Of a stretch of DNA of 64,000 nt, positions 1 through 8,464 are shown piece by piece. The notes beneath the pieces are model-generated. The model worked only from the letters and a program-made list of their open reading frames with translations, did not search any database and was not told the DNA's origin. The position numbers and the translations under genes were made by a program. Source of the stretch: Paraglaciecola sp. L1A13 (GTDB taxonomy: Bacteria > Pseudomonadota > Gammaproteobacteria > Enterobacterales > Alteromonadaceae); the NCBI RefSeq assembly GCF_009796745.1, contig NZ_CP047024.1, forward strand, positions 2,170,001 through 2,234,000, written 5' to 3'. How positions within the stretch are numbered: the stretch's first letter is position 1; every line of letters begins with the position of its first letter.

Positions 1-365
1 AATTCGAGCGGGGCGAGTAGAGGTTTTTTGACAAAGCTTACCCAACCACCTAAGCCACCAGGGCAAAAAGACCTTGCCACTTGCAGCACTTGCTTATAGC
101 CCTTTGTGGTCACTAAACCCACTTTTGCCCCTTTGCCGGTCAGTACTGCATTGGTCGCGACAGTAGTACCATGCATGACCCTGCCGATTTTACTTACGTC
201 AACGCCTGACTCTTGGCAAATACGGGCAATGCCATTGAGTACGCCGACAGATGAATCTTCTGGCGTAGAGGGAACCTTCGCCGTGTGTGTTTCACCCGTT
301 ATTTCATTTATCAACAGTAAGTCAGTGAACGTACCGCCTACATCTACACCTAATCGATAACTCAT
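1..365 (-). CDS. Hydantoinase/oxoprolinase subunit A (HyuA-like), partial
   Basis: The N-terminal 121 residues of a HyuA-type ATP-dependent amidohydrolase or carboxylase subunit are present; the rest lies beyond the left edge. The start MSYRLGVDVGGTFTD carries the acetate-kinase-like phosphate-binding motif, followed by MHGTTVATNAVLTGKGAKVG, which is typical of the family (5-oxoprolinase, N-methylhydantoinase, acetone/acetophenone carboxylase alpha-type subunits). The ATG is preceded by GGAG at a 6-nt spacing. It is the last visible gene of the operon, 32 nt after the HMG-CoA-lyase-like gene. Family members hydrolyse cyclic amides or activate ketones or amides using ATP, usually with a HyuB partner, which would lie outside the window. 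The substrate cannot be told from this fragment. Confidence 0.9.
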   Translation of the reverse strand, partial: MSYRLGVDVGGTFTDLLLINEITGETHTAKVPSTPEDSSVGVLNGIARICQESGVDVSKIGRVMHGTTVATNAVLTGKGAKVGLVTTKGYKQVLQVARSFCPGGLGGWVSFVKKPLLAPLE

Positions 366-397: not shown

Positions 398-1300
398 TTA
401 ATTGTTATAATATTTTTCCATCCAGGATTTCGCTTTACCGCCGGTCGCGGTGCCCGTTAAGGCAATGGCTACATTAGATGCTTCTAACAGCAAAGGGATA
501 TTGATACCGGTATCAAAACCCATTTGTTCAAGCATCATGACGACATCCTCAGTCGCCACATTTCCGCTGGCGCCAGGGGCAAATGGACAGCCCCCTAAAC
601 CCGCTATTGAGGCATCGAATTTGCGAATACCAGCTTCAATTGCAGCGTATGTATTGGCAAGTCCCATGGCTCTAGTATCATGAAAATGGCACGACAATAT
701 GTTGCTGTCGAATCGACTCACCAGACCGCTCATCAAGCTTTGTACCTGGGCGGGATCCGCTGCACCAATAGTATCGGCGATAACAATAGCGCTGGCACCT
801 GCTTCGATAAGTTGTTCCGTTATCCGGTACACCTCATCGGGCGCTATTTTCCCCTCGAACGGGCAGGCCCATGCCGTGGCTACGTAGGCTTGCACATTTG
901 CCCCTTTTGACTTTGCTAAACTCAGTACTTCTTGACTGACTTTGATACTCTGCTGGGTTGTCATGTGAATGTTTTTTTCATTCATGGTGTTCGAGGCAGC
1001 TACCACCAGGGACGTCAAAGGCACTTTTGCGTCAAGGGCTAACTCGAATCCTTTCATGTTTGGGATAAGGGCTGAATACCGCGCACTTCCCTTAGGTAAC
1101 ATGGCAAATAAGTCCGCGGTACCCGCCATTGCCGGAACCGCTTTAGGAGACACAAACGCGCCCACTTCTATTTCAGGTATGCCTGCCGCCTCAAGGGCCA
1201 TAATCAGTGTTAAACGTTGTTCTAAATTGAGTACCCTGGGTTGGTTTTGTAAACCATCTCGAGGACCCACATCATTAATGATGACTTTATTTGATGCCAT
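398..1300 (-). CDS. HMG-CoA lyase-like enzyme (DRE-TIM metallolyase)
   Basis: This 300-residue TIM-barrel lyase belongs to the hydroxymethylglutaryl-CoA lyase family, which cleaves a 3-hydroxyacyl-CoA thioester to acetyl-CoA and an oxo-acid. Visible family features are DVGPRDGLQNQ near residue 10, the metal-binding HFHDTR motif in the middle, and the signature GLGGCPFAPGASGN with its mobile-loop cysteine. The length matches bacterial HMG-CoA lyases (about 300). Its ATG overlaps the TAA of the upstream CoA-transferase by one base (TAATG), so translation is probably coupled. Pairing with a CoA-transferase rather than with the full leucine-degradation (liu) set suggests that a free branched hydroxy-acid is activated and then cleaved here. 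That step is inference; true HMG-CoA may not be the substrate. Confidence 0.9.
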   Translation of the reverse strand: MASNKVIINDVGPRDGLQNQPRVLNLEQRLTLIMALEAAGIPEIEVGAFVSPKAVPAMAGTADLFAMLPKGSARYSALIPNMKGFELALDAKVPLTSLVVAASNTMNEKNIHMTTQQSIKVSQEVLSLAKSKGANVQAYVATAWACPFEGKIAPDEVYRITEQLIEAGASAIVIADTIGAADPAQVQSLMSGLVSRFDSNILSCHFHDTRAMGLANTYAAIEAGIRKFDASIAGLGGCPFAPGASGNVATEDVVMMLEQMGFDTGINIPLLLEASNVAIALTGTATGGKAKSWMEKYYNN

Positions 1301-2502
1301 TAGCCGATTACCTTTGCTGTTTTCAACCGTTTAACTTCTTGTGCATCCATACCTAATAATTCGTTCAGCACTTGGTCGGTATGTTGACCTAGCCCAGGGG
1401 CGGCAGTGAAGGTTTCTTCGTTGGTTCGTGAGAACTTAATAGGATTGCCTGGCCCCTTGGTTTTATATCCTTCAGGGTCTGATAACTCCACAACCATATT
1501 ACGGTGCAGCACTTGCTCGTCGTTCAGGGCTTGGGAGAACTTATTAACTGGCGCACAAGGGATACGCGCTTTTTCAAGTAGGTTTATCCAGTGCGCTGAG
1601 GTGTTTTTAGACAGCACTTTGTTGAGTGTTTCGTTGATGAAATCTTGATCTTTCCAGCGTCCGGGTTGCGTGTCGTATTCTGGTTTATCGAATTCGGCTA
1701 CCTTTAATAAATCTTTCAAATTTTGCCAGAAATTATCGGTGATAACGGCAATGACAATGTGCCCATCAGCCGTGGTAAAGGTATTGTATGGCACGTGTAC
1801 GAAGTGCGAGTTGCCGATTGGATAGGGGTCTTTACCTGATATAAAATGCATCGTTGCCATATAATTCAATAAAGAAATTTGGCAATCGAGCATTGACACA
1901 TCAACGTCCTGTCCTTCACCACTGCGCTCCCGCTCCAATAAAGCAGCTTGAATACCCATAACGGCGAACATGCCACCGCCCAAATCACCAATAGGGATAC
2001 CGGCTCTAATTTGTTGGTCAGGTCCAGTGCCAGTAATCGACATGCCGCCGCCCATTGCTTGTGCAACTTGATCAAAAGCAGGTCGTTTGAATCCCGGACC
2101 ATCGTTACCAAACCCAGTGATTGAACAAGAAATAATCCGTGGATTCACTTCTTTTAAGTGCTCATGGTCTATTTTTAAACGGGTAGGCACTCCAGCTCCG
2201 AAGTTATTGATAACAACATCTGATTTTTTGACTAAATCGTAAAATACCTTTAATCCTTCAGGCGACTTAAGATCTATACAGACGCTCTGTTTGTTTCGGT
2301 TAAGCGTAATGAAATACGCCCCCATGCCGTTAATAGAATTTTCAGGGTCGTTGGCCAGTAACGTGCGTGTTCCTTCACCTTTTAGGGGTTCAACTTTGAT
2401 TGTTTCAGCACCTAAATCGGCTAAGATCATCCCGCAATAAGGACCAGACAACATATGCGTTAAATCAATGATACGCAGTCCTGATAAGGGTTTATTTTTC
2501 AC
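1300..2502 (-). CDS. CaiB/BaiF family (class III) CoA-transferase
   Basis: This 400-residue class III acyl-CoA transferase moves CoA between carboxylic acids. The N-terminus LRIIDLTHMLSGPYCGMILA, the block GAETIKVEPLKGEGTR and the central GFGNDGPGFKRPAFDQVAQA are standard for the family. The expected catalytic aspartate is Asp206 in VSMLDCQ. The start is GTG with a GGAG Shine-Dalgarno 9 nt upstream. It sits 42 nt after the TonB-dependent receptor and overlaps the lyase gene by one base, so it should be co-transcribed with both. In context it would form the CoA thioester on which the lyase acts. The donor and acceptor acids cannot be predicted from sequence. Confidence 0.93.
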   Translation of the reverse strand: MKNKPLSGLRIIDLTHMLSGPYCGMILADLGAETIKVEPLKGEGTRTLLANDPENSINGMGAYFITLNRNKQSVCIDLKSPEGLKVFYDLVKKSDVVINNFGAGVPTRLKIDHEHLKEVNPRIISCSITGFGNDGPGFKRPAFDQVAQAMGGGMSITGTGPDQQIRAGIPIGDLGGGMFAVMGIQAALLERERSGEGQDVDVSMLDCQISLLNYMATMHFISGKDPYPIGNSHFVHVPYNTFTTADGHIVIAVITDNFWQNLKDLLKVAEFDKPEYDTQPGRWKDQDFINETLNKVLSKNTSAHWINLLEKARIPCAPVNKFSQALNDEQVLHRNMVVELSDPEGYKTKGPGNPIKFSRTNEETFTAAPGLGQHTDQVLNELLGMDAQEVKRLKTAKVIG

Positions 2503-2544: not shown

Positions 2545-5121
2545 TTAGAAACGATAAGCAAAGTCAACACCGTAAGAACGCTGTGCTGAAGGGTGTAAAA
2601 ATGATCCTCCAAACTCAGGTGTGGGTATCACTTCTTGTAGATAATTTTCATCAGTCAGATTTTTAGACCAAAGGGCCAGAGTCCAGTTTTCACTGTCTAG
2701 ACTGACACGTAAATTAAGGGTGCTGTAGGCGTCACGCGTAGCGTTTGAAAAATCAACCGAGTGCGGGCCAGCAGGTACACCGCCACCTAAGGTGCCAAAG
2801 AAGTCCCAAATAGTAGGGGTTTGTTCATCTTGTAGTGTATGGAAGTAAGTTTGACCCACGTACTGCCAATCAAGACGGCTAGTCATAAATAGATCTTCTG
2901 CTAACGAGTAATCCCAGCTAACACCAAGTGTGTAGGTTTCATCCGGTGATTGAGGCGCCGTATTGCCAACGGAAAGTGGACGGTTTTTATTTTCTTTTAT
3001 TTCACTATCAAGCAAACCAACTCCAGCAAAAATACTGACATCCTCGGTTACTTGAGCTTTTATATCCATTTCAAAACCTTGGATTTTAAGCTCATCGATG
3101 GTGGTAACCGCGCGAATTAGGCCAAATGGACCTGCGAAAAATTCGAAGAATTGGTTGTCGTCAACAGTTGTGTCGAATATTGCGCCGTTGAGTTTGATAA
3201 CGTCATCGAACAAGCTTGATTTAAAGCCTAACTCGATGTTAGTGGTGACTTCTTTGTCATATTCATCACTGACTAATAATTGTGCATTGACCGCATCGCC
3301 AGGGCTACCATCACCTGTGGCGTTAAACCAAAAATCAAGCGTCGCCTCAGTACCAATAGAATTGAATCCACCGCTTCTAAAACCCACACCGTAGCTTGCA
3401 TACCAGTTCCAGTCGTCACTAGCCGCATAGGCAAGGGTGACCTTAGGTTGCCAGTGACTGAATGTGCGGCTTCTATCTGGGATCCCATCTGGATTGGCGA
3501 TGAATGCTGGGTTAATCGGTCCGACTTCACCATCAATAATGGTGTTAATATTTAAGCCCGAAGCATTCACGTTGGGCACATTATTGCTTACATCACGAGA
3601 TTCGTGATCGTAGCGCAATGCGACTGATAGCTCCCACTGCTCATTAAAGTCGTACTCAAGTTGACCAAATGCAGACATGACTGAAGTATCAAATGTATCG
3701 TCGAATAATAGATCTGTAGGGTTAGGACCGGTTGCTGGAATGTAGGCTTGCTTTAGAAAGCCTTGACCTGTGTCTGCCCCATAGGCAACAACGACGTCTC
3801 GTTCAATTTCTGCAAAATATAAACCGGCGATCCAACGCAATGGGTCACTTGGCGAGTCTGAGGTGAAACGCAGCTCACCACTGAAGTCTGATTGACTGCG
3901 TTCTTGGAATTGATACCCATCACACGACGTCGGGGTGAAAGGACCGTATACGCCCGTGAATTCAACGCCTGGGGCGAAGACACCGTAAGGGGCGAAAAAC
4001 TCTCCGAACAAGTCAGTTCTACCGGCACCGCCGATCGCAGCAGGAGCGTTATTTAACGTGGCACGATCAGTTTGACATTGCGCTGTAAGCTCATAACCGT
4101 AAAAAGAAGCACTGGTGCCATCAGATAACAGGGTTTCTTCTAAGTCGTTGTAGGCAAGCACCGCGGTGACATCAAAACCGTCTAAATCTAGGTCTGCTTT
4201 TAGTGATGTTTCAAACGTAGATTGTTCGTTTATGCCCGGCACGTTGAAGGCGAAAATAAAATCGTGTTCGTTGACGTCGGCAAAATAGGCCGGTTGATTA
4301 AACGCGTCAACAAATGAGGGCAAAGCAAAAGCCGCATTGTAGTTAATGGCTCCGCCTTCTACGTCACTGACACTTGCACGAAAGTCCAGTGTGAGAATAT
4401 CTGACGCGTCCCATATTAATCGGCCTCGAATATTGCTGTCTTCTAAATAATCCACTGAGTCATCAGCACCGGTAAATGCATTACTGTAAAAACCATCGGT
4501 ACTGTTAGTACTTGCTGACAAGCGTCCGCGAAGGGAGTCTGAAAAAGCACCGGATATAACACCACTAATTTTTTGAGTATCATTGTTGGCCAAACCAACC
4601 TTGACTCGACCTTCAAATTCATCTGAAGGCTGTTTAGTGGTGACTATTATCGCACCTGCCACTGCATTGCGACCGTACAATGCTCCCTGTGGGCCTTTTA
4701 AAACCTCAATTTGGGCCACATCGAATAATTCTTCATTGAAGCCATTTGGATTGGTCATCAGCACACCATCAACCACGTAGGCAAAGGTTGATTCCGCGTC
4801 ACGGGTTGAGACTATCCCTCTAATGGTAACTTGTGTGTCACCGACGTTTGATGCGTCTACCATAGTGATGTTCGGGATCAAACCTATAGCGTCACCGGGG
4901 CGTTCTATACCTGCGTTTTCAATAACCTTTTCGGACAGCGCAGTAATCGCAATGGGCACTTCTTGTAGGCTTTCAGGTCGCTTACGCGAGATACTGATAA
5001 TTTCAAGTTGTTCATTAGATAACGTTGTTTCTTGCGCATTCGCTTCCACAAGGGGATAAAACCCGCTGCTCAGCGCTAATATTATGCTGCTAGTTAAGGT
5101 ATTTATTCGCAGATCTGCCAT
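2545..5121 (-). CDS. TonB-dependent outer-membrane receptor
   Basis: This is an 858-residue receptor. A signal peptide (hydrophobic stretch about residues 10-28, ending before QETTLSNEQ) precedes the plug domain. The plug shows the usual landmarks: ISISRKRPESLQEVPIAITA, a TIRGI motif, VDGVLMTNP, and VEVLKGPQGALYGRNAVAGA. The remainder is beta-barrel, ending in the aromatic C-terminus VDFAYRF expected for BAM-dependent insertion. The start ATG has GGAG upstream. It lies only 19 nt after the sigma-54 activator and 42 nt before the CoA-transferase, so it is very likely the importer of the substrate degraded by this operon. It resembles the broad group of iron-independent Alteromonadales and sphingomonad receptors; the ligand is unknown. 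Confidence 0.95.
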   Translation of the reverse strand: MADLRINTLTSSIILALSSGFYPLVEANAQETTLSNEQLEIISISRKRPESLQEVPIAITALSEKVIENAGIERPGDAIGLIPNITMVDASNVGDTQVTIRGIVSTRDAESTFAYVVDGVLMTNPNGFNEELFDVAQIEVLKGPQGALYGRNAVAGAIIVTTKQPSDEFEGRVKVGLANNDTQKISGVISGAFSDSLRGRLSASTNSTDGFYSNAFTGADDSVDYLEDSNIRGRLIWDASDILTLDFRASVSDVEGGAINYNAAFALPSFVDAFNQPAYFADVNEHDFIFAFNVPGINEQSTFETSLKADLDLDGFDVTAVLAYNDLEETLLSDGTSASFYGYELTAQCQTDRATLNNAPAAIGGAGRTDLFGEFFAPYGVFAPGVEFTGVYGPFTPTSCDGYQFQERSQSDFSGELRFTSDSPSDPLRWIAGLYFAEIERDVVVAYGADTGQGFLKQAYIPATGPNPTDLLFDDTFDTSVMSAFGQLEYDFNEQWELSVALRYDHESRDVSNNVPNVNASGLNINTIIDGEVGPINPAFIANPDGIPDRSRTFSHWQPKVTLAYAASDDWNWYASYGVGFRSGGFNSIGTEATLDFWFNATGDGSPGDAVNAQLLVSDEYDKEVTTNIELGFKSSLFDDVIKLNGAIFDTTVDDNQFFEFFAGPFGLIRAVTTIDELKIQGFEMDIKAQVTEDVSIFAGVGLLDSEIKENKNRPLSVGNTAPQSPDETYTLGVSWDYSLAEDLFMTSRLDWQYVGQTYFHTLQDEQTPTIWDFFGTLGGGVPAGPHSVDFSNATRDAYSTLNLRVSLDSENWTLALWSKNLTDENYLQEVIPTPEFGGSFLHPSAQRSYGVDFAYRF

Positions 5122-5140: not shown

Positions 5141-6991
5141 TTAATTATTGTTTATGCGTTTAAGCCGCCGCCATAACGTGGTTTGACTCAGTCCTAAATA
5201 CGCCGCGGCGCGGCGCTTGTCCCCATTGAAACGAGTCATAGCTTCAACAACTAGTTCAAGCTCTTTGGCTTTTACTAAACCGTTGTCTGGGTCAAAATTT
5301 TCATGCTGCAACATCTCTGGTGCAATGTGGTGTAAAACCTGTTGAATGTTGTTTGTGCTATTAGCGGTATACAAATAGGCAACTAAACGCTCTAAAACAT
5401 TTTCTAATTCACGGACGTTACCCGGCCAAGCGTAATCAACTAAGGTTGACATAACATGAGGTAAAATATCGTCGACGGAAAATGGCAATTTATAACTGAT
5501 AATGAATTCAGCTAACTTTTGTTCTGAGATACGTTTAATATCTTCAGGGCGCTCCCGAAGTGCTGGAATATGTATATTAAAAACGTTAAGGCGGAAAAAT
5601 AAATCTTCTCTAAAAAAGCCGGCTTCAACCAGTTCACGCAACGGTTTATTGGTTGCCGCGACTAATTTTAAATTAACCGGTTTCTCTTCGTTTGAACCAA
5701 GAGGGCGATAGTGCCTCTCTTGCATAAAGCGTAATAATTTTGATTGTTGATCGAGTGCAAGCTCACTTATTTCATCAAGAAATAACACACCATTTTGTGC
5801 TTCTTCGATAAGACCTTTTCGACCACCACGTTTCGAACCGGTAAAAGCGCCATCACGATAGCCAAAAAGCTCACCTTCAAACAATTCAGTCGGAATAGCG
5901 GAACAATTTAACGGGACAAAACGTCCTTCACAATAGGGACTGTGTTGATGAACGGCTCTGGCAATAAGTTCTTTACCTGTACCGGATTCACCAAAAATTA
6001 GCACGTTGCTAGGTGAAGTTGAAAATGATTTAACTTGGTTGACGACTTCAACTAATGCAGGTGACGAATACACTAAGTTATGACGGTTTGTGACTAGCTG
6101 TTTTTCTGTTTTAGGCTTCTTTCGATAGAATTGATAAACATAAGACGGGTTGCCTTTAGCCATTACGCAATCTTGATGAAACCACCAATCGGTGCCATGT
6201 ATCTGACATTCGCCATCCGTTGGACGCTGGTGTTCATCAGAGTGAATAAAGCTTTCTAGCTCGATATGACTCTCACTATCTACACCTAATTCGTCGAAAG
6301 CAGCTTGATTAAATATGACCGAGTCACCTTGTTCATCAGTCATAAAAATAGGGGTTTTTGATTGGTACACAAGCCAATCGGTTAGGGCGGTACGTTGCTG
6401 CGTCTGTAAATGATTACGTCCTGCGCTGATTGCATTGGCCAGAGTTTTTCTACAAGACTGTGCGGAATACAACAAGAACGCTGGGATTTCTTGCTGCGCT
6501 GCCAGGCCACAGACCAAGCTTGCGCCAACATATACCACATTTTTGAGTTGACGAGTCAGTTGAAATATTTCTCTGGCTTGGTCTGAGGTGGTATAAATTT
6601 CTTCTTGAATGGAAACGTTTAACGCTGATTCTAGTAGAGGTACGACGGGTGACGATTCTGCGAAATTGATTAATACGATATTGTCGGAAATCTGAGCTGC
6701 TCTTTTAACAGCAGAAATAATATCCCCTGGCGTACTGTCCAAAGACAATACTGGGATATCTAATGCTGACTTTAGGTAAGCGGCGTTAGCCCCTGCGCTG
6801 ACAATCACGTCAGGTTTGAAATCTGTAATGTGTTGTTCAATTTCTTTGACGCTTCCAACGATAGTATCAAGAATGCGAAAGTGCGCTTTTTCAGTAAACT
6901 CTGGCATAACGCTGGTCATGAGTTGACTAAATTCTTTGTGGCCAAATACCAAAACGCGCACATGCTCAAAAGTAGACTTTGAAATTTTCAT
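5141..6991 (-). CDS. Sigma-54-dependent activator with PrpR-type sensor domain
   Basis: This bacterial enhancer-binding protein has about 616 residues. The start at MKISKSTFEH is preferred to an ATG six codons upstream because AGGGG lies 7 nt before it. Residues 1-200 form a PrpR_N-like sensor (VLVFGHKEF, DVIVSAGANAAYLK, NVVYVGASLV), followed by a PAS-like linker. The AAA+ domain (about 310-545) has Walker A GESGTGKE, the sigma-54 contact loop GAFTGS (the canonical loop is GAFTGA; as I recall PrpR proteins also carry Ser here, followed by a similar basic stretch), LFLDEISEL and the arginine-finger region. A Fis-type HTH ends the protein (KRRAAAYLGLSQTTLWRRLK). PrpR_N domains sense small carboxylates or acyl-type metabolites in known cases. 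It is the first gene of the operon and has its own -24/-12 promoter and an upstream palindrome, suggesting autoactivation. Confidence 0.93.
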   Translation of the reverse strand: MKISKSTFEHVRVLVFGHKEFSQLMTSVMPEFTEKAHFRILDTIVGSVKEIEQHITDFKPDVIVSAGANAAYLKSALDIPVLSLDSTPGDIISAVKRAAQISDNIVLINFAESSPVVPLLESALNVSIQEEIYTTSDQAREIFQLTRQLKNVVYVGASLVCGLAAQQEIPAFLLYSAQSCRKTLANAISAGRNHLQTQQRTALTDWLVYQSKTPIFMTDEQGDSVIFNQAAFDELGVDSESHIELESFIHSDEHQRPTDGECQIHGTDWWFHQDCVMAKGNPSYVYQFYRKKPKTEKQLVTNRHNLVYSSPALVEVVNQVKSFSTSPSNVLIFGESGTGKELIARAVHQHSPYCEGRFVPLNCSAIPTELFEGELFGYRDGAFTGSKRGGRKGLIEEAQNGVLFLDEISELALDQQSKLLRFMQERHYRPLGSNEEKPVNLKLVAATNKPLRELVEAGFFREDLFFRLNVFNIHIPALRERPEDIKRISEQKLAEFIISYKLPFSVDDILPHVMSTLVDYAWPGNVRELENVLERLVAYLYTANSTNNIQQVLHHIAPEMLQHENFDPDNGLVKAKELELVVEAMTRFNGDKRRAAAYLGLSQTTLWRRLKRINNN

Positions 6992-7119
6992 TTCTGATCC
7001 CCTAGGCATGCCAGTGCCAACAATAGTTTGTTGAGCACAGTGGTTATATTTTGGGTATTTAAGTATTCCACGTTATTTTTTAGTTCTTTCATTTAACTTC
7101 TCGCAGGTATAGAGCATGT

Positions 7120-7135
7120 AGCATCAGCTGTGCCA
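7120..7135 (-). promoter_or_regulatory. Candidate sigma-54 (-24/-12) promoter of the catabolic operon
   Basis: On the minus strand the sequence reads TGGCACAGCTGATGCT. Against the sigma-54 consensus TGGCACGNNNNTTGCW it matches at all but two defined positions, and the essential GG-N10-GC spacing is exact. The predicted start site is near 7109, giving a leader of about 118 nt before the activator ATG at 6991. The next gene is itself a sigma-54 activator, which makes a functional -24/-12 element much more likely than chance. Not experimentally supported. Confidence 0.6.
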
Positions 7136-7229
7136 CACTCGTAATTTTATAATTGGCCCCCTGTTTTTAAAGGGCTGTAAAGGAAATTTGGGAATAATGT
7201 CGCTTACATCTTAGCAACAAAAAAGACAT

Positions 7230-7273
7230 AATTAATTTCATTATGAAAAATATTTTTCATAATGAAATTAATT
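7230..7273. promoter_or_regulatory. Perfect 44-bp palindrome, probable activator binding site
   Basis: Positions 7230-7273 are a perfect inverted repeat. Within it are two 13-bp dyads, TTTCATTATGAAA (7236-7248) and TTTCATAATGAAA (7255-7267), with centres 19 bp apart. The palindrome centre is about 142 bp upstream of the start site predicted for the sigma-54 promoter at 7120-7135, the distance usual for an enhancer-type activator site. An alternative reading is a terminator of the VOC gene: on the minus strand the hairpin lies 28 bp past that gene's stop, and a run of six T follows shortly after. The AT-rich stem makes the operator reading more attractive, but both are possible. Confidence 0.65.
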
Positions 7274-7301
7274 TGGGAGGCAAAAAGAAAAAACAAATGT
7301 T

Positions 7302-7706
7302 TTAGGTGGGTTGGCAAAGTTGCAAAACAAAGGCGAGAGATAAAGGACACTCAATATCATGGACAGACCAATTATCGAGGCCTGAGCGAGGACCCTTTGC
7401 ATCGGGTTTGATGCCGCGTTCAACGAGTGCGTCTAAGGCGTTACTTAGGTTGTCCACACCAAATGACAGTAAAAAAAGTCCTTCTCCACGCTGGGCTAAG
7501 ATACGTGCTACTTCGCTGTGTTCACTCACAGGCTGAACTAATACCAACCAAGCATCACCTACCGGAAAACGAGCGGTCTTCACATCTCGCCCTGATAATG
7601 CTTCAACGATCGGCTGGCAATTAAATAACTTGCTGAAATAGGGAATGGCCTGATTGAGATCGCTAACCAAATAATTAATGTGGTGGATTGAACGAATATG
7701 ATTCAT
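7302..7706 (-). CDS. VOC/glyoxalase-fold protein, metal site apparently incomplete
   Basis: This single-domain vicinal-oxygen-chelate protein has about 134 residues and starts at MNHIRSIHHINYLVSDL. A GTG 18 codons upstream is also open, but the fold begins right after the ATG and AAGGGG lies 12 nt before it. The betaalphabetabetabeta pattern resembles methylmalonyl-CoA epimerase or HPPD-like proteins. The first His ligand (HHINYLV) is present. The usual second His (HxAF) is replaced in LLSFGVDNL, and no clear C-terminal Glu is seen in the last strand (LAFVLQLC). It may therefore bind ligand without VOC chemistry. It lies on the operon strand upstream of the activator, separated by the palindrome, so membership in the operon is uncertain. 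Confidence 0.75.
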   Translation of the reverse strand: MNHIRSIHHINYLVSDLNQAIPYFSKLFNCQPIVEALSGRDVKTARFPVGDAWLVLVQPVSEHSEVARILAQRGEGLFLLSFGVDNLSNALDALVERGIKPDAKGPRSGLDNWSVHDIECPLSLAFVLQLCQPT

Positions 7707-8002
7707 GGTTTTTAAATGCCCCTTTATGTTAAGCCATAATACGAGCACGTAATGTGCCACAGTGAGTGATAGGGGCTTTGGGTGCCAAACGCTATTATTT
7801 AGAGCCTAGTTGAAAAACACATACTAAGGATATTGAGTCATAGTTTTCGTGGTTAGAGTATTTGAGCATATGCACGCGTTAGATTTGATTTATGAATACG
7901 TTTTTATCTTAATTGGCAGTTCCTATAGGGTTACGATGAAATGAAATAGCCCAACAAGCGTTCCCGTTGTAAGTATATAAATTTTAAAAGAGAACAGCGT
8001 AA

Positions 8003-8464
8003 ATGAAAAATGTAATTTTAATGATTGTCTTGTGCCTATTTTCAATCGCAAGCGACGCGCAGCAAAGTGTAAAGGGGATTGATCATGTGGGATTGACGGT
8101 GAGTCATTTGCAGGCATCTGAAAAATTCTTTATTAACCACGCGGGGTTTCGCGTTGTGGGTCGAGACGAGCAATACCCGGCTGTTTTTCTTTCTAATGAT
8201 AGTGTGGTCATTACACTATGGGCGGCGACTCACCCTGAACGTGCCGTTAAGTTTGACCGTAAAAATAATGTGGGGTTACATCATTTGGCCTTCAGAGTTG
8301 AAAGTGAAGATGCATTAAACGCATTGTATGAAACGTTATCGAAAGATGAGCGTGTGGTAGTAGAGTTTGCCCCAGAGCAATCCGGAAACGGCCCAAACAA
8401 ACATATGATGGTGTATGAGCCTAGCGGTAATCGAATTGAATTTATGTATCGGGCTTTGCCCTAA
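8003..8464 (+). CDS. Exported VOC/glyoxalase-fold protein
   Basis: This 153-residue protein has an N-terminal signal peptide (MKNVILMIVLCLFSIASDAQ, likely cleaved after the Ala) followed by one VOC domain: GIDHVGLTVSHLQASEKFF, then GLHHLAFRVES, and the C-terminal NRIEFMY. These supply the His-His-Glu metal triad expected of an active VOC enzyme, unlike the neighbouring VOC protein. Most VOC proteins are cytoplasmic, so a predicted periplasmic location is notable. It resembles the fosfomycin-resistance/dioxygenase-like branch, but no substrate can be assigned. It appears monocistronic and convergent with mltD. Confidence 0.82.
   Translation: MKNVILMIVLCLFSIASDAQQSVKGIDHVGLTVSHLQASEKFFINHAGFRVVGRDEQYPAVFLSNDSVVITLWAATHPERAVKFDRKNNVGLHHLAFRVESEDALNALYETLSKDERVVVEFAPEQSGNGPNKHMMVYEPSGNRIEFMYRALP

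Follow-up and report, generated by a model that had tools for sequence, protein, structure and literature searches.

Organization of the locus

The window, by which we mean the whole 64-kb stretch of Paraglaciecola sp. L1A13 DNA that was analyzed, carries on its minus strand a gene (5141..6991) for a sigma-54 activator of 616 aa with PrpR_N, AAA+ and Fis-HTH domains. It is followed on the same strand by genes for a TonB-dependent outer-membrane receptor (2545..5121), a CaiB-type (family III) CoA-transferase (1300..2502), an HMG-CoA-lyase-like enzyme (398..1300) and HyuA (hydantoinase/oxoprolinase A), the 5' end of which (1..365) reaches the window edge. Past this edge the operon goes on (locus L069) with the remainder of HyuA, then HyuB, an isochorismatase-family hydrolase, LeuC and LeuD, and this is the order of the operon from the activator as first gene. 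Upstream of the activator gene lies a VOC (glyoxalase-fold) gene, again on the minus strand (7302..7706), and the region between the two contains a perfect 44-bp palindrome (7230..7273, no strand assigned) and a -24/-12 element, TGGCACAGCTGATGCT (7120..7135, minus strand), the predicted driver of the activator gene and the genes downstream of it. Divergent from this VOC gene is another gene of the VOC family (8003-8464, plus strand), the product of which begins with a signal-peptide-like sequence.

The palindrome search returned two arms of 22 nt each (7230-7251 and 7252-7273) with 100% complementarity and a loop of 0, the runner-up gapless perfect palindrome in the window having arms of 11 bp; by a simple base-composition estimate, about 5e-7 palindromes with 22-bp arms are expected in the 4.97-Mb genome. 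The palindrome holds two 13-bp candidate activator dyads of the form TTTCA-N3-TGAAA, both given on the minus strand: a proximal one, TTTCATTATGAAA (7236..7248), which starts 113 bp ahead of the point where the -24 element begins, and a distal one, TTTCATAATGAAA (7255..7267), the two starts being 19 bp apart. The element TGGCACAGCTGATGCT shows the exact GG-N10-GC spacing and two mismatches to TGGCAC-N5-TTGCA, and so qualifies by sequence as a sigma-54 promoter. A screen of both strands of the window for this consensus (at most two mismatches, exact GG-N10-GC) yielded 10 elements, including TGGCACAGCTGATGCT and a second -24/-12-like element, TGGCACATTACGTGCT (7744..7759, minus strand), upstream of the VOC gene. 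The original prediction had placed a palindrome with two dyads, a -24/-12 element of exact spacing and a sigma-54 activator gene heading a minus-strand operon at this locus, and all three were confirmed.

For comparison, 395 genomes of the family, a sample of a larger group, were searched, and those giving a match at E ≤ 1e-100 (n = 26) were counted as genomes with the activator; homologues beyond the family were compared as proteins or by tblastn on plasmids only. The cassette is scattered, being present in 4 of 22 genomes of the genus and in 26 of the 395 sampled from the family. Named relatives comprise Paraglaciecola polaris, Paraglaciecola sp. MB-3u-78, a Paraglaciecola MAG and Pseudocolwellia sp. 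AS88. Loci of three named relatives were read; that of P. polaris has the same neighbours as the window, and the genes around the other two differ. All 26 loci have the CaiB-type and HMG-CoA-lyase-like genes, 25 have the TonB receptor as the gene directly after the activator, 25 have HyuA and HyuB, and 22 the isochorismatase-family hydrolase; the tblastn search behind these counts used a 50% coverage filter on loci of limited length, so that an absence of LeuC or LeuD is uninformative there. Some loci do not fit a fixed operon: L045, where none of HyuA, HyuB and the hydrolase lies within reach, and L060-L062, which lack the hydrolase. A variant operon is found in genome G302 (L082, 4968-15551), where the activator is the last gene and where genes judged by eye to be RND-, YCF48-, DUF1302- and DUF1329-like stand between the HMG-CoA-lyase-like gene and HyuA, replacing the TonB receptor. 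The Paraglaciecola genome holds another leuC, 68% identical to the operon LeuC, between leuB- and leuD-like frames; the operon LeuC was for this reason taken to be an extra copy, and its assignment to leucine biosynthesis was rejected.

The activator protein

Pfam recognizes four domains in the activator, PrpR_N (PF06506, E 9.1e-25), Sigma54_activat, an AAA lid and a Fis-type HTH_8. Features of a sigma-54 enhancer-binding activator are present, namely the Sigma54_activat AAA+ domain, a Walker A motif GESGTGKE, the sequence LFLDE and HTH_8. The open frame extends to 7009, but AGGGGA directly precedes the ATG at 6991, and 616 aa is the length of most of the closest homologues among those listed; the start codon is therefore probably the one at 6991. 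The loop that contacts sigma-54 reads GAFTGS, within GYRDGAFTGSKRGG, instead of GAFTGA. Its last residue is Ser in 81 and Ala in 36 of the 120 homologues listed, and the other activators of the same genome show GAFTGA in five of seven loci, no loop being detected by the script in two. Searching the genome with the activator gave 11 matches, the other 10 of which cover residue 298 onwards only.

The recognition helix of the activator, GLSQTTLWRRLK, is close to that of Escherichia coli PrpR, GISRTTFWRRLK, and the HTH pattern G-[ILM]-S-x-TT[LF]WR[RK]LK, also found in the latter, occurs in all 26 orthologues. The protein nevertheless scores 426.4 against the PrpR equivalog TIGR02329, below the cut-off of 499.2, and 398.6 against NF011953, for which the cut-off is 703. 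With its PrpR_N domain and the TTTCA/TGAAA half-sites upstream of its gene, the activator belongs to the wider PrpR-like family. Its original description as PrpR-like can thus be kept in this wider sense; an identification with PrpR itself cannot, given the score below the TIGR02329 cut-off and an operon without prpBCDE.

A pair of dyads conserved at the operon head

Upstream of the orthologous activator genes, strict dyad pairs (at most one mismatch in each dyad, 19-21 bp apart, within 400 bp of the gene) were found in 22 of the 26 loci, versus 1 of 5200 sequences obtained by first-order Markov resampling of the same regions. A looser definition (at most two mismatches in each dyad and three in all, 18-30 bp apart) gives 25 of 26 loci versus 25 of 5200; among these are a locus with two exact dyads 29 bp apart (L050) and two in which one dyad of the pair has two mismatches (L060 and L066). 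These loci are not independent, since some come from close relatives: the spacers of L049, L051 and L052 are 94-98% identical, and the site and promoter of L061 and L062 are identical. Column conservation amounts to 1.62 bits in the dyads, 0.57 in their central N3 and 0.28 in the flank, values that are partly circular because the loci were aligned on the dyad.

The remaining locus (L067) has no dyad pair upstream of its activator gene under either definition. It belongs to genome G302, in which an exact tandem dyad together with a -24/-12 element, TGGCATTTATGTTGCT, is found at the operon head before CaiB, about 16 kb from the activator. As the activator is the last gene there, the site tracks the head of the operon and not the activator gene, and no other single observation speaks as strongly for a cis-regulatory role.

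In only 7 of 25 orthologue loci do the two dyads have central N3 that are reverse complements of each other, so that perfection of the palindrome is confined to some lineages, and the whole 44-bp palindrome was rejected as a conserved unit. From these alignments the conserved unit is the pair of dyads, and neither the palindrome nor an RNA hairpin. The expectation that the palindrome would recur upstream of orthologues was accordingly borne out for the dyad pair, which precedes the activator gene in 25 of 26 loci and stands at the head of the operon in the last one, and failed for the perfect palindrome; the claim that the activator binds the palindrome and turns on its own operon gains support from the comparison, provided that the two dyads and not the whole palindrome are understood as its probable target.

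How specific the dyads are to this operon bears on whether they could be the operator of another regulator, for instance a repressor, with the activator binding elsewhere. The motif TTTCA-N3-TGAAA is generic and AT-rich, and of the 13 family genomes among 395 that contain an exact tandem dyad, once each, two (G162 and G364, from one genus) have no activator match. In these two the dyad lies at the 3' end of a gene and is flanked by CCG and CGG, so that it may be a terminator stem. Speaking against this, a -24/-12-like element with two mismatches is located about 315 bp from the dyad, inside that gene and on the other strand, and about 2.5 kb away lies the AAA+ part of a different sigma-54 activator (39% identical over residues 316-622). 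The other 11 exact tandem dyads come from the 26 genomes with the activator, versus the 2 of 369 without it, and all 11 stand at the operon head. Moreover, the dyads keep narrow classes of distance to the -24/-12 element (see below), and both the half-site and the HTH are PrpR-like. An operator for a different regulator is consequently regarded as quite improbable.

Outside the activator upstream regions, 491,483 bp of the same loci contain three strict pairs, around position -2000 in L060, L061 and L062, each 86-87 bp before another -24/-12 element; in L062 the frame that follows, starting about 330 bp further on, encodes a LytTR-type regulator (Pfam). Further dyad-like sequences adjoin the main dyad pair, one of them 20 bp upstream of it in the same three loci and another, in L061, L062 and L064, 14-15 bp past the point where the proximal dyad begins. 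In L046, L068 and L047 a TTTCA-N3-TGAAA-like dyad is found about 30 bp downstream of the -24/-12 start, at about -120 relative to the start of the activator match, and possibly acts as a brake on self-activation.

Within the whole Paraglaciecola genome, TTTCAN3TGAAA-N6-TTTCAN3TGAAA with at most three mismatches, a search restricted to the 6-bp gap, occurs in three places, exactly at the palindrome and with three mismatches at the other two. The reversed control of the pattern likewise gives two matches per strand at this threshold, and a wider regulon in the genome was rejected, there being no second site under three mismatches. A related tandem motif, TTAAATTATGAAACTATAGTTTCATAATGGAA, was noticed at L013 (C1:233435) upstream of frames that by eye resemble a HipB/HipA pair, the first small-HTH-like and the next HipA-like; it is probably the own operator of that system, and the locus was judged unrelated to the regulon.

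Distance between dyads and promoter

Dyads precede the activator gene in 25 loci, and in 24 of them an element with GG-N10-GC and at most three mismatches lies between dyads and gene. In the other one (L056) the -12 position reads GA instead of GC, which makes its promoter doubtful. When the starts of the proximal dyad and of the -24 element are taken as end points, the distances in the 24 loci form two narrow classes: 15 loci have 112-115 bp, and nine, from two genera, have 87-90 bp; outside these, the distance is 112 bp in L056 and 135 bp in G302. In the 112-115 bp class it varies with a standard deviation of 0.97 bp, compared with 21.7 bp for the distance between the promoter and the start of the protein match, and the spacers of this class and L056 have a gapless median identity of 0.33 versus 0.27 after shuffling. 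The two classes differ by about 26 bp, or about 2.5 helical turns, which is not a whole number and for which we offer no explanation.

The IHF consensus (at most one mismatch) is present in all nine spacers of the 87-90 bp class, compared with 26% of resampled sequences, and in eight of the nine at a fixed place, but in only 2 of the 15 spacers of the 112-115 bp class, where resampling gives 19%. IHF was for this reason discarded as a general feature and is proposed for the 87-90 bp class alone. A narrow enhancer-promoter distance maintained despite diverged spacers offers a natural test of the constraint that loop geometry places on sigma-54 activation, and the presence of an IHF consensus in the class around 87 bp, versus none that is clear in the class around 113 bp, is part of the same test.

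The VOC gene and the terminator question

The VOC gene is a conserved upstream neighbour, found within 1 kb upstream of the activator gene in 23 of 26 loci. A -24/-12 element with at most two mismatches lies within 160 bp upstream of it in 5 of these 23, against about 0.3 expected at the background rate; of the rest, three have an element at three mismatches and 15 have none. The VOC gene is probably part of the regulon, and in this genome has its own sigma-54-like promoter as judged by sequence. Control by the same dyad site is plausible in this genome, P. polaris and Pseudocolwellia, and would not be general, since the element was found at this threshold in only 5 of 23 loci and is missing in 15.

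Lying after the stop codon of the VOC gene, the palindrome could in principle terminate transcription of that gene or form an RNA hairpin at its 3' end; the RNA fold of the palindrome in this genome is stable (-22.1 kcal/mol, z -6.98), with a T-rich stretch within about 10 nt after it. The original prediction had itself raised a VOC terminator as one of its refuting outcomes, which was looked for and did not appear: a terminator search of 6900-8100 found no terminator-like site, a G+C-containing stem with an immediate T-run being absent. The pair of dyads is kept in the orthologues even though their central N3 are complementary in so few of them, the RNA energies of the orthologue sites vary from -3.8 to -21.8 kcal/mol, and no common T-run is apparent by eye in their tails. 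Furthermore, dyads are present in two loci without a VOC match within 1 kb (L050 and L056) and at the CaiB head in G302. A terminator or hairpin as the function of the site is on these grounds hardly credible, although the stable hairpin of this genome may have a side role.

The proximity of the VOC gene raises another question, namely whether the activator acts on the dyads while its own gene is transcribed mainly by read-through from the VOC promoter or from a weak sigma-70 promoter, self-activation being minor. The VOC gene is just upstream and on the same strand in most loci, its own -24/-12-like elements exceed the background rate, and a positive loop needs some basal supply of activator to start. 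Against this, 24 of the 25 loci arranged in this way have a -24/-12 element that separates the dyads from the activator gene. We consider a main contribution from read-through or sigma-70 a minority possibility that deserves some weight.

Proposed regulatory mechanism

The site, the promoter, their geometry, the operon and the conservation of each are direct observations, and taken together they make it very probable that the dyads and the sigma-54 promoter let the PrpR-like activator switch on its own catabolic operon. The palindrome would provide an upstream activating sequence, its two TTTCA-N3-TGAAA dyads, about two helical turns apart, being bound by activator dimers through the C-terminal Fis-type HTH. 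On meeting a metabolite of the pathway, the presumed effector, the N-terminal PrpR_N domain would allow assembly of the AAA+ hexamer, and looping of the spacer of about 100 bp would bring the activator into contact with sigma-54 RNA polymerase at 7120-7135. Transcription, predicted to depend on RpoN and to start from this promoter, would then include the gene of the activator itself and the catabolic genes after it, which amounts to positive autoregulation. The dyads may act on the sigma-54-like promoter of the VOC gene just upstream as well.

Possible pathway

The closest solved structures of HyuA are N-methylhydantoinase, 5-oxoprolinase and acetophenone/acetone carboxylase subunits, and that of the hydrolase is N-carbamoylsarcosine amidohydrolase; the structure entries 4l07 and 3uao are maleamate amidohydrolases. 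A sequence of reactions from cyclic imide through alkyl-maleamate, alkyl-maleate and alkyl-malate to alkyl-malyl-CoA would draw on every enzyme that the operon encodes apart from VOC. We put forward, as a speculation more likely wrong than right, that the operon degrades a substituted cyclic imide or lactam (e.g. an alkyl-maleimide from tetrapyrrole breakdown) by a route not described so far, in which HyuAB would open the ring, the isochorismatase-family hydrolase remove ammonia, the LeuCD-like pair hydrate the alkyl-maleate, the CaiB enzyme add CoA and the HMG-CoA-lyase-like enzyme split the product. PrpR_N would be retuned to the acid of this pathway, with a positive loop acting through an enhancer about 113 or 87 bp from the promoter. 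The genes of such a route are incomplete nearby in L045 and L060-L062.

A search of the open-access literature yielded no description that we recognized of the regulator, the operon, the pathway or the site; the type of switch is well known, and it is for this regulator and pathway that no description was found. Regulators of this kind, often named propionate-operon regulators by sources, are now tied to a specific site, promoter and operon, and this link gives a direct reporter for finding the substrate of the operon.

Comparison with known systems

NtrC of the glnALG operon, itself a sigma-54 activator, increases its own expression by way of a sigma-54 promoter preceded by dyads, as is predicted here for the PrpR-like activator. 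NtrC is, however, a two-component response regulator of nitrogen control, whereas the present activator has a PrpR_N domain and a local operon.

In the sarcosine locus of Bacillus thuringiensis, one inverted-repeat site of the sigma-54 activator SoxR serves two sigma-54 promoters (PMC4941409), a precedent for the arrangement proposed here, and the likeness to SoxR thus consists of one site for a sigma-54 activator, two sigma-54 promoters and a catabolic locus. SoxR inhibits its own expression (PMC4941409), in contrast to the positive autoregulation predicted here.

Parallels are also offered by PrpR and prpBCDE. Both systems have the PrpR_N, AAA+ and Fis-HTH architecture, E. coli PrpR has nearly the same recognition helix, and the E. 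coli prpR-prpB region likewise contains TTTCA/TGAAA half-sites and a -24/-12 element. On the other hand, the activator remains below the PrpR equivalog cut-off, its operon has TonB-CaiB-HMGL-HyuA-HyuB-Isoch-LeuC-LeuD in place of prpBCDE, and its gene reads in the same direction as its targets, while in E. coli and Mycetohabitans prpR and prpB are divergent. Half-site spacing differs as well. The PrpR enhancer is given in the table of a review as CGTTTCATGAAACG (PMC4987338), which as printed there has N0 between the half-sites instead of the N3 found here; E. coli K-12 prpR-prpB contains GTTTCA-N12-TGAAAC, TTTCA-N4-TGAAA occurs near the Mycetohabitans prpR and an unannotated PrpR-like gene of Paraburkholderia caribensis, and a PrpR-like gene of Caballeronia shows fits with two mismatches only. 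Judged from these sequences, the activator and the PrpR systems have the half-site in common and differ in its spacing.
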